Below, piece after piece: positions 39,412-45,221 of a stretch of 64,000 nt of DNA. Numbering within the stretch: the stretch's first letter is position 1; each line of letters starts with the position of its first letter. Made by a program: the position numbers and the translations under genes. This stretch comes from Lapillicoccus jejuensis (lineage in GTDB: Bacteria > Actinomycetota > Actinomycetes > Actinomycetales > Dermatophilaceae): NCBI RefSeq assembly GCF_006715055.1, contig NZ_VFMN01000001.1, positions 4,464,001 to 4,528,000 on the forward strand, written 5' to 3'. The notes under the pieces were generated by a model, which worked only from the letters and a program-made list of their open reading frames with translations, made no database searches and was not told the origin of the DNA.

Positions 39412-39555
39412 GCGGGTCCTTCCAGGGCGGGTGGGGCTCGGTGGTGGGGCTGGGCGGTGGGCTCCGGCCCCGGGGTCCCCATCCGCCCGGCGCGGGCCCG
39501 GGGCGGGGGAAGATCGTCCCGGGACCGTTCGGGCGGCTGGAGGCCGCGCGGTCGG

Positions 39556-39615
39556 TGCTGTGCTGCTGGTGCTGCTGGTGGAGCTGCTGCTGGTGGAGCT
39601 GCTGCTGGTGCTGCA
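39556..39615 (-). repeat. CTG/CAG-rich repeat between mraZ and rsmH
   Basis: Two perfect 15-base units GAGCTGCTGCTGGTG (39581-39595, 39596-39610) sit in a longer CTG-rich run, in the mraZ-rsmH intergenic stretch 39412-39636. One minus-strand frame would read it as a Gln/His-rich segment, but it has no start or ribosome site of its own. I see no other feature in the gap. Confidence 0.75.
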
Positions 39616-39636
39616 GGTTGAGCGGGGTGGAGGGCC

Positions 39637-40068
39637 CTAGAAGAGCCCGGGGATGACCTCCTCGGACTGCTCGGCGAAGGCCGCCTCGCTGCGCACGAGG
39701 TAGGCCTCCCACGCCTTGGTGTCCCACACCTCGACGCGGTTGCCGGCGCCGATGACGGTGCAGTCACGGGTGAGGCCGGCGTAGGCCCGCAGCGGCGGGG
39801 GGACGGTGACCCGCCCCTGCTTGTCCGGCACCTCGTCGGAGGCGCCGGAGAGGAACACGCGCACGTAGTCGCGCACGGCCTTGCTCGAGGTGGGGCCCTG
39901 CTGCATCGCCGTGGCCACGCGGGTGAACTCGGCGACGTCGTACACGTAGAGGCAGCGCTCCTGCCCCTTGGTCATGACCAGCCCGTCGGCGAGCCGGTCG
40001 CGGAACTTCGCGGGGAGGAACAGGCGGCCCTTGTCGTCGAGGCGGGGGGTGTGGGTGCCGAGGAACAC
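39637..40068 (-). CDS. mraZ: Transcriptional regulator MraZ
   Basis: 143 residues, the standard length, with two SpoVT/AbrB-like halves each holding the DxxGR motif: '[19 protein letters not shown]' and '[20 protein letters not shown]'. It binds repeated boxes upstream of its own operon and represses it in E. coli. The first gene of the division and wall cluster. GTG at 40068 was chosen for the family start and the GGGAGGTGG ribosome site upstream; the longer open frame reaches across the intergenic region and is not supported. Confidence 0.96.
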
Positions 40069-40157
40069 GACGCCACCTCCCGGTCCGACGGCCTCGACCC
40101 GTCCTGCTCCGGTGGCCGGTCGGAGCCGGTGACGAAGGCCCACGTCCCTCCGTCGCG

Positions 40158-40183
40158 CCCCACGGTACTCCACTTTGCTCCAC
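40158..40183 (-). promoter_or_regulatory. MraZ operator upstream of mraZ
   Basis: On the minus strand three direct boxes occur at an exact 10-base period: GTGGAG (40183-40178), GTGGAG (40173-40168) and GTGGGG (40163-40158). E. coli MraZ recognises TGGGN-type boxes with the same period, so this is very probably the autoregulatory site. It lies 90-115 bases before the mraZ start. Confidence 0.8.
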
Positions 40184-40256
40184 ACACAACGCGCCACGAC
40201 CGGAATGTCGGACTTTTTTCGACCCCGTCCTGAGCGTCTGCGCAGGTCAGCGCGCA

Positions 40257-40282
40257 GTGGCCGCGGGTGGGGCACAGTGGAG
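40257..40282 (+). promoter_or_regulatory. Mirror MraZ-like boxes facing the moxR operon
   Basis: On the plus strand three boxes share the 10-base period: GTGGCC (40257-40262), GTGGGG (40267-40272) and GTGGAG (40277-40282). They mirror the mraZ operator about a centre near 40220. A divergent promoter pair between them is inferred. Confidence 0.55.
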
Positions 40283-40519
40283 GACGCAGGGCCGTCCCAC
40301 CCCACCCACCGGGCCCCTCCCCGGCCCCCGAGGAGCCCCGGACGGGGCCCGTACGGCGCCCTCCCCCGCTCCGGCCCGCGGTCGGGGCACCCGAGGGGCG
40401 CCCCGGTCGTTGCGGCGTCCGGGACGATTCCCCTTCCCGCCCTTGGTGGGTGGGGCAGAGTGGGGGAAGATCGAGCCGGTGGGGTGCAGCCCCCGCCGCC
40501 GCAGGCGAAGGGACGACGC
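40283..40519 (+). other. moxR upstream region, further GTGGG boxes
   Basis: The rest of the 451-base mraZ-moxR gap. Plus-strand GTGGGG at 40450-40455 and GTGGGG at 40460-40465 are again 10 bases apart, with a further GTGGGG at 40479. CCCCACCCACC (about 40300-40310) is the inverse of GGTGGGTGGGG (40445-40455). Whether these bind MraZ or form structure in a long leader is open. Confidence 0.35.
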
Positions 40520-41545
<1,026 letters not shown>

Positions 41546-41553
41546 GCCCTCGG

Positions 41554-42852
41554 GTGTCCGGCGCGGCGGCGGGACCTGGGCGGGTGCGCGACGTCCTCAC
41601 CACGCGCGGGCAGGCGTTCGTCGCGGCCGGGATCACGCTCGCGCTGTGCGGCCTCGGTCTCGGCTTCGTCGACATCACCCGGGTCGGGGTGCTGCTCGTC
41701 GCGCTCCCGCTCGTCGCCGCCTTCCTCGCCCGGCGCCAGCACGCCGCGCTGCAGGTCGAGCGGCACCTCGTGCCGCCGCGGGTCTCGGTCGACGAGCCGG
41801 CCACGGTGACCGTGAGCGTGGAGAACGCCGGCGAGCGCCGCTCCCCGCTGCTCCTGGTCGAGGAGCGCCTCGACTACGTCCTCGGCGACCGACCGCGGTT
41901 CCTGCTCGGCGCGATGCAGCCGGGCGAGGGGCGCCAGGTCGACTACGCGATCCGCTCCCACCTGCGCGGCCGGCACCGGCTCGGGCCCCTCGCCGTGCAG
42001 CTGCGCGACGCGTTCGGGCTCACCACCCGCTTCGCCGAGGTCGGGGGGTACGACGAGGTCGTCGTCCTGCCCCGCGTCGAGCCCCTCGCGGGCGGGCGGC
42101 TCGCGGGGCAGGGGCTCGGTCAGGAGGGCGAGACCCCGCACATGGTCGCGCTGCACGGCGAGGACGACCAGTCGATCCGCGAGTACCGCGACGGCGACGA
42201 CCTGCGCCGCATCCACTGGCCGGCGACCGCGCGCACCGGCGACCTCATGGTCCGCCAGGAGGACCGTCCGGCCCGGCGCAGGGCGGTGCTGCTGCTCGAC
42301 CCGCGCGTCGCCGCGCACCGCGGCTCGGGCGCCGGGTCCTCGTTCGAGTGGGCGGTGACCGCGGTGGCGTCGGTCCTCGTCCACCTCGCCGAGGCCGGCT
42401 TCGCCGTCCACCTCGTCTCCAGCGAGAGCACCCGCGACGGCGCCGTCGAGGTCGTGCCGGACACCGACGCCGCGCTCGACCTGCTCGCCGAGGCCCGCAC
42501 CGGCGGCGACGGCGAGCTCGACCTGCTCGTCCACGCCGCCCACGTGCCCGCCTCGCAGGGCGGCCTCGTCGTCGCCGTCCTCGCCGACCGCGACGAGGAG
42601 GCCGTGCGCCAGGTCGCCTCGCTGCGCCAGCCCGGCAGCACCGGCCTCGCCGTCGTCCTCGACACGGCCACCTTCGGCGACCGCGACGCCGGCTCCGCGT
42701 CCCGGGCGGACCCGGGCTCACCCGGCGACGACGCGACGGCGTACGCCGACATGCTGCGCATCGCCGGGTGGCACGCGGTGACGGTGCCCGCCGGCCAGCG
42801 CGTCGCCGGTGTCTGGCAGGCGCTCACCGCCCGCGGGGTGGCGGCGCGATGA
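41554..42852 (+). CDS. DUF58 domain protein
   Basis: 432 residues. Two N-terminal membrane helices ('AFVAAGITLALCGLGLGFVD', 'VGVLLVALPLVAAFLA'), an immunoglobulin-like domain, then the DUF58 core with the diagnostic 'SIREYRDGDDLRRIHWPATA' and a VWA-like fold region after it. GTG 41554 is eight bases after moxR; GTG 41584 is an alternative start. The stop overlaps the ATG of the transglutaminase gene by four bases. DUF58 proteins always travel with MoxR; molecular role unproven. Confidence 0.9.
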   Translation: MSGAAAGPGRVRDVLTTRGQAFVAAGITLALCGLGLGFVDITRVGVLLVALPLVAAFLARRQHAALQVERHLVPPRVSVDEPATVTVSVENAGERRSPLLLVEERLDYVLGDRPRFLLGAMQPGEGRQVDYAIRSHLRGRHRLGPLAVQLRDAFGLTTRFAEVGGYDEVVVLPRVEPLAGGRLAGQGLGQEGETPHMVALHGEDDQSIREYRDGDDLRRIHWPATARTGDLMVRQEDRPARRRAVLLLDPRVAAHRGSGAGSSFEWAVTAVASVLVHLAEAGFAVHLVSSESTRDGAVEVVPDTDAALDLLAEARTGGDGELDLLVHAAHVPASQGGLVVAVLADRDEEAVRQVASLRQPGSTGLAVVLDTATFGDRDAGSASRADPGSPGDDATAYADMLRIAGWHAVTVPAGQRVAGVWQALTARGVAAR

Positions 42853-45221
42853 CCCGGGTCCGGGCCGTGGACGCCGCTGTGGCGCTGCTCGCGTCGATGT
42901 GCGCCGTCTTCGCCGTCACCACGCTGACGACGCCGGCGTCGTGGCTGGCCCCCGCCTTCTGGTGCAGCCTCGTCGCCGTCCTCGTCGGGGCCGGTCTGCG
43001 CCGGCTGACCTCGCGCAGCCTGCTCGTGCTCCTCGGCCAGCTCGTCGTCGGGGCGTACGTCGTCTTCGCCGTCACCGTCCCCGGGTCGCTGCGCGGCGGG
43101 CTGCCGTGGACCTGGACGGCCGAGGCGGTCGACCGGGTCGGGATCGACGTCACCGACGTCGTCACCCGGTACGCCGCCCCCATCCCCTCGACGTTCGGCA
43201 TCACCGCGATGCTCGTCGCCGCCGCGGTGCTCCTGACGATCGTCGTCGACTTCCTCGCGGTGACCCGTGAGGCGCCGGCCGCCGCGGGCCTGCCGCTGCT
43301 CGCCGCGTTCCTCGCCGCCGTCGCCAACAGCGGCGCCGCGCTGGGGCTGGGCTACTTCGTCCTCGTCGCGCTGTCCTGGCTGCTGCTCGTCTCGCGCACC
43401 ACCAGCGCCGTCGTCCGGCGGTGGTCGACGGCCGCCGCGACCCCGCGCACCCCCACCGCCGACCCGGAGACCGAGCCGGGCGTCCTGTCGGGCCTCGGGG
43501 CGAGCGCGCGGAAGCTGGGCGTCGTCGCCGTCGCCGCGGCGGTGCTGCTGCCGGTCGTGCTGCCGCACCTGCCGACGCGGTTCGTCCTCGACGGTCTCGG
43601 GCAGGACGACGGCGCCGTCGGTCGCGGCGGCCGGGTCGGCTTCTCCTCCACGCTCGACCTCAGCCGCAGCCTGCAGAGCGGGTCGCTCAACCCGGTCCTC
43701 ACCTTCCGCACCGACGCCCCGGGCACCCCTCCGCCGCTGCGGGTCGTCGTCGCCCCCGAGTTCGTCGACGGCCAGTGGCGCACGACGACCACCGGGTCGG
43801 ACAGCCGCACGCTCGTCGGGGCGGCGCGGATCTCCTCGCAGGTGCTGACCCGCGACCGCCGCGTGCAGGTGTCCGCCAACACGCTGGACGCGCCGCACCT
43901 CGCGACGATCCAGCCGGTCGTCAGCGCCGACCTCGGCAGCACGGCGTGGTCGGCCGACCAGCAGACGGGCGACCTCTTCGTCCGGTCCAAGCCGGACGAC
44001 TACGTCCTGGCCTACCGCGAGGTGACCGTGAGCGCCGACCAGCTGCGCGAGGGCATCCCCGGCGGCGACTCGGGCGCGAGCGACCCGCAGGTGCAGGCCT
44101 CCCGGGCCCTCGACCCCGGCTCGGCCCAGGTCGTGCGGGAGACCACGGCGCAGGTGACCAAGGGCGCGACCAGCCCGTGGGAGTCGGCCGTGAAGATCCA
44201 GGACTACCTGCGCGGGACGGCCTTCACGTACTCGCTGCAGTTGCTGCCCGCCCCGACCCGGGCGGACGGGCGCCAGGAGACCGACCCGGTCGTCGCGTTC
44301 CTCGAGACCAAGCAGGGCTACTGCGTGCAGTTCGCCACGGCCATGGTGATGATGGCGCGGGCCGCGGGGATCCCCGCGCGGATGGCCATCGGCTTCCTGC
44401 CGGGCACCTTCGAGCAGGGGCAGTGGACCGTCCGCGCCGCCGACGCGCACGCCTGGCCCGAGCTGTACTTCCCCGGCGCCGGCTGGCTGCGCTTCGAGCC
44501 GACCCCGGCCGAGCGGACGGGCAGCACGCCGTCGTACGCGCAGGAGCCGACCGGCGGCGCGACGACTGCGCCGAACCGCGACCCGGAGGCGACGCAGAGC
44601 GCGACCGGCACGGCGGCGCCCACGACGAACCGCCGCCCCGACGTCGACCCGACGACGGGCGCCGTCCTCACCCCGTCGGTCGGCGACCGGCTGCGCGGCT
44701 GGGTCACCTCGCCGGCGGCGTACGTCGTCCTCGCGATCCTCCTCGGGCTGCTCGGCTCGCTCGTCCTGCCGGTGACCGCACGGCTCCTGCACCGACGGCG
44801 CCGCGAGCGCGCGCCGGACCCCGCGACCCGGGCCGAGGCCGAGTGGCAGGAGCTGGTCAGCCGGCTCGGCGACCTCGGGCTGCGGCCACCCTCCGGCGGC
44901 ACCCCGCGGGAGTGGGCACGCCACTACGTCGTCGAGGGCTACCTCGACGAGCAGGCCGAGGAGTCGATGGGGCGGGTCGTCACGACCCTGGAGCGCGGCC
45001 GGTACGCCCGGCCGGGCTCGGCGCTCGACGACCGGCACCCGGACGTCGAGTCCGTCGCGAGGGCGGCCGCCCGCGGCCGGCCGGTCTCCCGGCGGGTCAG
45101 GGCGTTCCTCGCGCCCCGGGCCGCGGTGGCCTGGTGGTCGGGGCTCGGGTCCCGCGTCGCGGCCCTGCCGCGCCGGGCGCTGTCCGGGGTCGTGGCCCGG
45201 CTGCCGCGCCGCGGTCGCTGA
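42849..45221 (+). CDS. TgpA-like membrane transglutaminase (DUF3488)
   Basis: 790 residues. About six N-terminal membrane helices form the DUF3488 part, followed by an extracytoplasmic transglutaminase-like domain with the Cys in 'TKQGYCVQFATAMVMMARAA' (about residue 492), the His in 'ADAHAWPELYFPG' and the Asp region 'LRFEPTPAER'. A Thr/Pro-rich linker, one more helix ('AYVVLAILLGLLGSLVLPV') and a cytosolic DUF4129-like tail with 'PREWARHYVV' follow. Likely acts on envelope proteins or peptidoglycan peptides (inference). ATG at 42849 is coupled to the DUF58 stop. Confidence 0.9.
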   Translation: MTRVRAVDAAVALLASMCAVFAVTTLTTPASWLAPAFWCSLVAVLVGAGLRRLTSRSLLVLLGQLVVGAYVVFAVTVPGSLRGGLPWTWTAEAVDRVGIDVTDVVTRYAAPIPSTFGITAMLVAAAVLLTIVVDFLAVTREAPAAAGLPLLAAFLAAVANSGAALGLGYFVLVALSWLLLVSRTTSAVVRRWSTAAATPRTPTADPETEPGVLSGLGASARKLGVVAVAAAVLLPVVLPHLPTRFVLDGLGQDDGAVGRGGRVGFSSTLDLSRSLQSGSLNPVLTFRTDAPGTPPPLRVVVAPEFVDGQWRTTTTGSDSRTLVGAARISSQVLTRDRRVQVSANTLDAPHLATIQPVVSADLGSTAWSADQQTGDLFVRSKPDDYVLAYREVTVSADQLREGIPGGDSGASDPQVQASRALDPGSAQVVRETTAQVTKGATSPWESAVKIQDYLRGTAFTYSLQLLPAPTRADGRQETDPVVAFLETKQGYCVQFATAMVMMARAAGIPARMAIGFLPGTFEQGQWTVRAADAHAWPELYFPGAGWLRFEPTPAERTGSTPSYAQEPTGGATTAPNRDPEATQSATGTAAPTTNRRPDVDPTTGAVLTPSVGDRLRGWVTSPAAYVVLAILLGLLGSLVLPVTARLLHRRRRERAPDPATRAEAEWQELVSRLGDLGLRPPSGGTPREWARHYVVEGYLDEQAEESMGRVVTTLERGRYARPGSALDDRHPDVESVARAAARGRPVSRRVRAFLAPRAAVAWWSGLGSRVAALPRRALSGVVARLPRRGR

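Follow-up and report, generated by a model that had tools for sequence, protein, structure and literature searches.

Inverted, helically phased MraZ-like operator sites upstream of mraZ in Lapillicoccus jejuensis and its relatives

Gene organization of the mraZ-moxR region

The window, by which we mean the whole 64-kb stretch of DNA analysed, is a piece of the 4.58-Mb, one-contig genome of Lapillicoccus jejuensis. It carries mraZ, with mraW and other dcw genes downstream, and a divergent set of genes for a MoxR-type AAA+ ATPase, a DUF58 protein and a TgpA-like membrane transglutaminase; 448 bp separate the start codons of mraZ and moxR (Table 1). MraZ, which is widely conserved, regulates the division and cell-wall cluster. 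The genome encodes one such protein (PF02381, TIGR00242), the only two PF02381 matches being the two halves of mraZ, and its nearest named relative is from a Lapillicoccus MAG (89%). The MoxR-DUF58-transglutaminase order is like that of aaa-atp/duf58/tgm in the bifidobacterial PFNA cluster (PMC8430577), and the MoxR-DUF58 order like that of the mycobacterial moxR1-DUF58 operon (PMC12067865); the available text of neither paper describes a link to MraZ. Low-complexity CTGCTGGTG/GGAGCTG repeats occupy positions 39560-39620, in the stretch from the mraZ end (39640) to the mraW ATG (39411). An Rfam search at gathering scores over 39500-41000 gave no match.

Table 1. Features of the mraZ-moxR region, in window coordinates.
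Feature	Position	Strand	Basis or remarks
mraZ, 144 aa	39640..40071	-	GTG start at 40071; Pfam PF02381 1.2e-35; TIGR00242 over cut-off
O1, predicted MraZ operator of mraZ	40148..40183	-	three GTGG boxes; fourth box degenerate (ACGGAG, 40148-40153)
mraZ promoter, inferred	40162..40189	-	-35-like TTGTGT (40184-40189), 16-bp spacer, -10-like TACCGT (40162-40167, inside boxes 2-3)
TGACCTGC element adjoining O2	40242..40249	-	consensus across relatives
O2, inverted MraZ-like operator	40257..40282	+	pattern searches, conserved pairs; mirror set of the first-pass annotation
O3, second inverted MraZ-like pair GTGGGGCAGAGTGGGG	40450..40465	+	pattern search, conserved pairs
moxR, MoxR-type AAA+ ATPase	40520..41545	+	GTG at 40520; AAA_3 PF07726 3.5e-64, AAA_lid_2 2.8e-25
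DUF58 protein	41551..42852	+	PF01882 9.1e-11; exact start uncertain
TgpA-like membrane transglutaminase	42849..45221	+	TgpA_N 4.2e-33, Transglut_core 9.1e-28

Three sets of GTGG boxes in one gap

Two triplets of boxes lie in the gap, each with a 10-base period: GTGGAG, GTGGAG and GTGGGG on the minus strand (5' ends at 40183, 40173 and 40163), and GTGGCC, GTGGGG and GTGGAG on the plus strand (starts at 40257, 40267 and 40277). They are mirrored about 40220, and both sit exactly where the first-pass annotation had placed them. A further plus-strand pair, O3, is absent from that annotation; its GTGGGGGAAGATC end is common to near relatives, or nearly so. O1, O2 and O3 all consist of GTG(G) direct repeats with the 10-bp period of MraZ operators. 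The window contains the pattern GTGG-N6-GTGG-N6-GTGG twice, where 0.03 occurrences are expected, and 0 of 100 shuffles reached two. Genome-wide there are four matches, including the two in the mraZ-moxR gap, and a backwards control gives five; a single triplet is thus no rarity in the genome, and what is rare is its doubling within one gap. The looser two-box pattern GTGGDGNRNAGTGGDG has exactly three matches in the genome, one each in O1, O2 and O3, and its backwards control has none.

O1 and the mraZ promoter

Upstream regions of mraZ were gathered from 254 loci including our own, and in 221 of them moxR diverges from mraZ within 1.2 kb; these reduce to 191 non-redundant gaps. All 191 gaps have two or more boxes spaced by 10 bp on the mraZ strand (three boxes in 98, four in 30), and a distance of 10 is sharply over-represented in the relatives on either strand. 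The logo of 54 distinct strict-triplet sites, our own among them, reads GTGGRGnRAA GTGGAGTAnn GTGGRG(C/G) followed by a fourth GG(A/G)G. Its positions 16 and 17, inside boxes 2-3, are T and A in 54 of 54 sites, and together with the T of the third GTGG they spell TANNGT, which we take to be an actinobacterial -10 element. A motif of the form TTGACG-16-TAGAGT is present in relatives of the spacing class in which O2 lies at distance 72, and a scan of 40060-40540 with a generic sigma-70 consensus found no promoter. Eraso et al. 2014 reportedly placed the MraZ operator of Escherichia coli upstream of mraZ. The E. coli sequence there contains three GTGG boxes on the mraZ strand with a 10-bp period and the core GTGGGGCAAAGTGG, which is of the same kind as O1. 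On this evidence, O1 is probably a standard MraZ operator that here overlaps the -10 region. O2 and O3 lie upstream of mraZ, clear of that promoter.

Conservation and orientation of O2 and O3

A stricter form of the motif was searched in 60 genomes of the family, drawn evenly from a larger group, and gave 111 matches, six of which were unplaced, the mraZ coordinate being lacking. Among the 105 placeable matches, all but two (103) are found no more than 700 bp upstream of mraZ, the mraZ strand having 54 of them and the opposite strand 49; the other two are in genomes G018 and G002, the latter of the window's own genus. Opposite-strand matches were found in 44 of the 56 genomes having a listed mraZ coordinate, a count made with a motif that overlooks weaker pairs and in our own genome detects O1 only. 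The concentration of matches at mraZ, together with the likeness to the boxes that precede mraZ in E. coli, bears out the earlier suggestion that both sets resemble MraZ operators, as do the gaps of genomes with no MraZ match, which have no pairs (see below).

On the moxR-facing strand of the 191 gaps, 315 pairs of GTGG words lie at a distance of 10, compared with 14 at 9 and 18 at 11, and at least one two-box pair is present in 174 gaps. The mirror set had been described as a triplet, and in this form it is hardly kept: a strict GTGG triplet facing moxR occurs in 3 of 191 gaps (L085, which is the window's own, L094 and L189). The conserved unit therefore appears to be the pair, and the set scored as a triplet would seem unconserved. 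When similar gaps were merged into 159 cluster representatives, 256 opposite-strand pairs were counted, against a mean of 2.8 and a maximum of 6 in 40 shuffles; boxes upstream of moxR and facing it were found in 142 clusters, O2 pairs in 114, O3 pairs in 110 and neither O2 nor O3 in 17. The pairs fall into two groups, whose median distances from the start of mraZ are 136 and 277 bp. Upstream of O1, the mraZ strand itself almost never carries a pair (4 of the 159 linked and 0 of 23 moxR-less loci), which indicates that the orientation is conserved as inverted. An alignment of 16 near relatives revealed little conservation besides the box sets, the end of the mraZ leader and a GCAGGTCA block adjoining O2.

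Among 20 distant members of the phylum, which were left out of the phasing tests below, nine have opposite-strand pairs within 600 bp, four of these nine belonging to one other family of the same class. Two loci of one distant family of the phylum (L308 and L309) have their distal pair on the mraZ strand (-188, -168) rather than opposite.

It is conceivable, at quite low probability, that O2 and O3 bind another regulator using the same GTGG direct repeats, as MraZ is their presumed ligand and a conserved TGACCTGC element adjoins O2, so that another factor may bind there. In 116 of 187 moxR-linked loci the GGTCA of this element is 59-61 bp further upstream than the O1 anchor; in the window the element is about 72 bp from the anchor, and in other loci it moves with O2. 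It could be a site for an activator, or else a third box of O2 in degenerate form. A different regulator fits poorly with the O2 and O3 logos, which resemble that of O1 beyond GTGG itself (G at position 5, a purine at 7, A-rich positions 8-9), and with the mraW-moxR gap of the three genomes without a MraZ match described next.

The boxes accompany mraZ rather than moxR

In a phylum-wide search, 4 of 118 genomes gave no MraZ match, G296 being one of them. The other three (G232, G300 and G317; loci L321-L323) belong to one genus, have genomes of 7.9-9.7 Mb and carry moxR divergent from mraW; they appear to have lost the regulator naturally. The mraW-moxR gap of all three is devoid of GTGG-N6-GTGG pairs, a test that comprises three genomes of one genus and in which a diverged MraZ could have escaped the search. 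In one of these genomes the strict pattern matches at three other places, two of which overlap in a 10-bp repeat. At G232:C1:4226999-4227024 three GTGG boxes follow one another every 10 bp, perhaps as a simple repeat.

The first-pass annotation had explained the moxR-facing set as placing the moxR-DUF58-transglutaminase operon under MraZ. O2 and O3 might accordingly be operators of this operon, repressed by MraZ together with the dcw genes: both face moxR, and 54 bases separate the end of O3 from the moxR start codon. We consider this reading unlikely, and the purpose once given to the set is unsupported as it was stated. Twenty-five loci, forming 23 clusters, have mraZ with moxR not adjacent; this set omits L036, L040, L063, L065, L169, L196, L223 and L244, in which the contig ends early or moxR is further upstream, and covers 1.6 kb of upstream sequence for L253 and L255. 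Opposite-strand pairs are retained in 17 of the 23 clusters (30 pairs; shuffled maximum, 3 loci), so that most moxR-less mraZ regions keep them. In L041 and L075 the upstream gene encodes a DUF3040 protein (PF11239) in the same direction as mraZ, ending 649 and 608 bp before it, respectively; the opposite-strand pairs lie in between and therefore face no divergent gene. Five of 21 genomes (G016, G072, G201, G208 and G211) have no moxR match at E 1e-30, and four of them keep opposite-strand pairs, G201 having none. By coordinate comparison, 30 of the 31 strict matches in these 21 genomes are at mraZ, and the remaining one (G202:C8:110515) is not at a moxR match.

Nor do the boxes accompany moxR away from mraZ. 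Thirty MoxR loci from 16 genomes, out of 44 matches, were examined, and two have any pair within 600 bp upstream; none of the 10 close moxR homologues away from mraZ (at least 60% identity, with a DUF58 match in the locus) has a pair. The retention in moxR-less loci, the bare moxR homologues and the empty gaps of MraZ-matchless genomes together indicate that the boxes go with mraZ, not with moxR.

One count points the other way. O2 is commoner beside moxR (114 of 159 linked against 9 of 23 moxR-less clusters; Fisher p 0.003), which would favour a moxR operator and suggests that moxR linkage, or lineage, matters somewhat, lineage being confounded with linkage in this comparison. The frequency of O3 does not differ significantly (110 of 159 against 13 of 23; p 0.24), which speaks against one. 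The GTGGGGGAAGATC end of O3 in near relatives can also be read as putting a -10-like GAAGAT in the TANNGT register of O1, and in the window and its near relatives this end could overlap a moxR -10. That a -10 element is a common feature of O3 was considered and rejected, the element being present in the near clade and missing from the wider logo. O3 is moreover unphased to the predicted moxR start, as described below. MraZ might control moxR in linked genomes, the window included.

Spacing and helical phasing of the operators

The set gathered for phasing comprised 224 loci, 191 moxR-linked and 33 others, and the spacing tests used 187 of the 191 moxR-linked gaps, L024, L095, L171 and L182 being dropped for want of an O1 anchor. 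Distances were referred to the GTGGAGTA-type box of O1. The O1-O2 spacings fall into four classes of 60-61, 68-73, 80-83 and 91-97 bp (9, 124, 5 and 7 pairs, respectively), with no O2 pair at any other spacing between 30 and 110 bp in the 187 gaps. The centres correspond to about 6, 7, 8 and 9 turns of 10.8 bp, which would put O2 on the same face of the helix as O1. The O2 periodogram alone gives a broad peak at 11.6 and is uninformative, since one spacing class dominates; the quantisation depends on the 21 pairs, of 145, that do not belong to the 68-73 class and of which several come from one clade, and is weak by itself on both counts. In the window, the spacings from O1 are 83/93 and 276 bp.

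The distance of O3 from O1 ranges from 142 to 352 bp. It has a period of 10.80 bp (bootstrap 10.65-11.00) with R 0.60 over 110 clusters, compared with a maximum R of 0.29 for a null jittered by one turn and with R 0.175 for 416 unpaired GTGG words. O2 and O3 are likewise phased to each other (R 0.75, n=82 clusters), and when the 41 distinct O2-O3 distances are each counted once R is 0.63, whereas 2000 null draws reach 0.46 at most. Splitting the loci by MraZ identity gave periods of 10.65-10.85 in both subsets. In the moxR-less loci some O3 pairs depart from the phase, the largest deviation being 5.4 bp.

Two other sources of periodicity were rejected. The 10-bp register of the boxes, with boxes 1-2 detected in some loci and boxes 2-3 in others, predicts a period of 10.0, at which R is about 0.32-0.33 and which lies outside the bootstrap limits. 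Phasing to the genes is absent, R being 0.16 to the mraZ start and 0.17 to the predicted moxR start. Operator spacing is, on this comparative evidence, constrained modulo the helical repeat, as a bridged complex requires.

The phasing also bears on whether O2 and O3 are MraZ sites outside any joint complex, either titrating spares or the product of drift in tandem copies of a two-box unit. Such a unit recurs at O3 every 22-24 bp in L041 (five copies, ten boxes), in L169 and in several other loci, as tandem drift would have it. This explanation nevertheless seems improbable, as it predicts neither helical phasing between operators in the absence of phasing to start codons, nor a near-strict opposite orientation, nor the persistence of the sets in gaps that otherwise scarcely align.

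A proposed bridged complex at the mraZ promoter

It is proposed that O2 and O3 are auxiliary MraZ operators by which a phased and bridged complex would be kept on the mraZ promoter, a reading to which we assign a probability of roughly 0.6. Its groundwork, namely the motif, position, orientation, conservation and phasing of the boxes, their presence without moxR and their absence from the mraW-moxR gap of three MraZ-matchless genomes of one genus, was read from the compared sequences; MraZ binding, bridging and repression, and any effect on moxR, are what we infer from it. O1, which overlaps the -10 region of mraZ, would serve classical autorepression. O2 and O3, on the opposite strand and about 60-97 and 142-352 bp from O1, would act as auxiliary sites, and MraZ oligomers would bind all three. 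Because the spacings keep the helical repeat, these oligomers would face the same way and could touch or share a ring, so that the DNA would be bent or looped into one folded repression complex on mraZ. An inverted arrangement would be suited to a face-to-face meeting of two rings, although this is speculation. By arithmetic, about 50-60 bp of free DNA lie between O1 and O2, which is tight for a simple loop, and side-by-side contact between rings may therefore be nearer the truth. Where moxR diverges from mraZ, its promoter region would lie in or beside the complex, and its co-repression in linked genomes is plausible for this reason. As a broader and more tentative proposal, to which we give somewhat less than even odds, the MraZ of Actinomycetota may be an architectural repressor whose rings bridge the promoter operator and two inverted, phased distal operators, switching the division and cell-wall cluster and, where divergent, the MoxR-DUF58-transglutaminase operon.

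Relation to known MraZ operators and looping repressors

MraZ is a ring-forming, AbrB-like protein that reads direct repeats, and we know of no clear reason for its large rings. LacI and AraC are looping repressors with auxiliary operators, for which spacing matters modulo the helical repeat. The proposed array is like theirs in having multiple operators and helix-dependent spacing; it differs in that MraZ reads direct repeats as a ring and in that the phasing here is deduced from comparative spacing. Solved MraZ structures, known to us by name, include 1n0e and newer entries. The available text of PMC7761207 describes MraZ as an octameric toroid and its site in Burkholderia cenocepacia as four 7-nt repeats with 3-nt spacers, i.e. 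a 10-bp period. This site is like O1 in its period, its GTG core and its location at the mraZ promoter; it is a single cluster over the transcription start, and the same text describes no distal or inverted set. The E. coli operator, for which that text likewise gives one cluster, downstream of the -10, differs from the window with its inverted distal sets. The 601-bp cra-mraZ gap of E. coli contains no opposite-strand pair, and the inverted array is therefore not general to MraZ. In Mollicutes, according to the available text of PMC8475190, the site consists of AAAGTG[T/G] direct repeats, and it is comparable to O1 in its direct repeats, AAAGTG core and position at the mraZ promoter; in Mycoplasma genitalium that promoter is the only chromosomal occurrence, and auxiliary operators are not described in that text.

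A literature search, outside which most subscription journals fell, yielded among the matches listed no paper connecting MraZ with moxR, DNA looping, distal or auxiliary operators, or helical phasing. As far as the available texts go, the co-mentions of MraZ and moxR in PMC12067865, PMC5055667, PMC9275681 and PMC7688217 are unrelated, and that of MraZ in PMC8430577 is a surname fragment. We accordingly file the MraZ operator as known and the inverted, phased and presumably auxiliary sites as new.

In E. coli, loss of mraZ has no apparent phenotype in the available text of PMC8475190. The family searches presented here suggest that for one bacterial family the target list of MraZ is short, comprising the mraZ promoter and, at most, the neighbour that diverges from it. 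The conserved, inverted and phased array, if true, would give the MraZ ring a concrete job, that of holding distant sites together.
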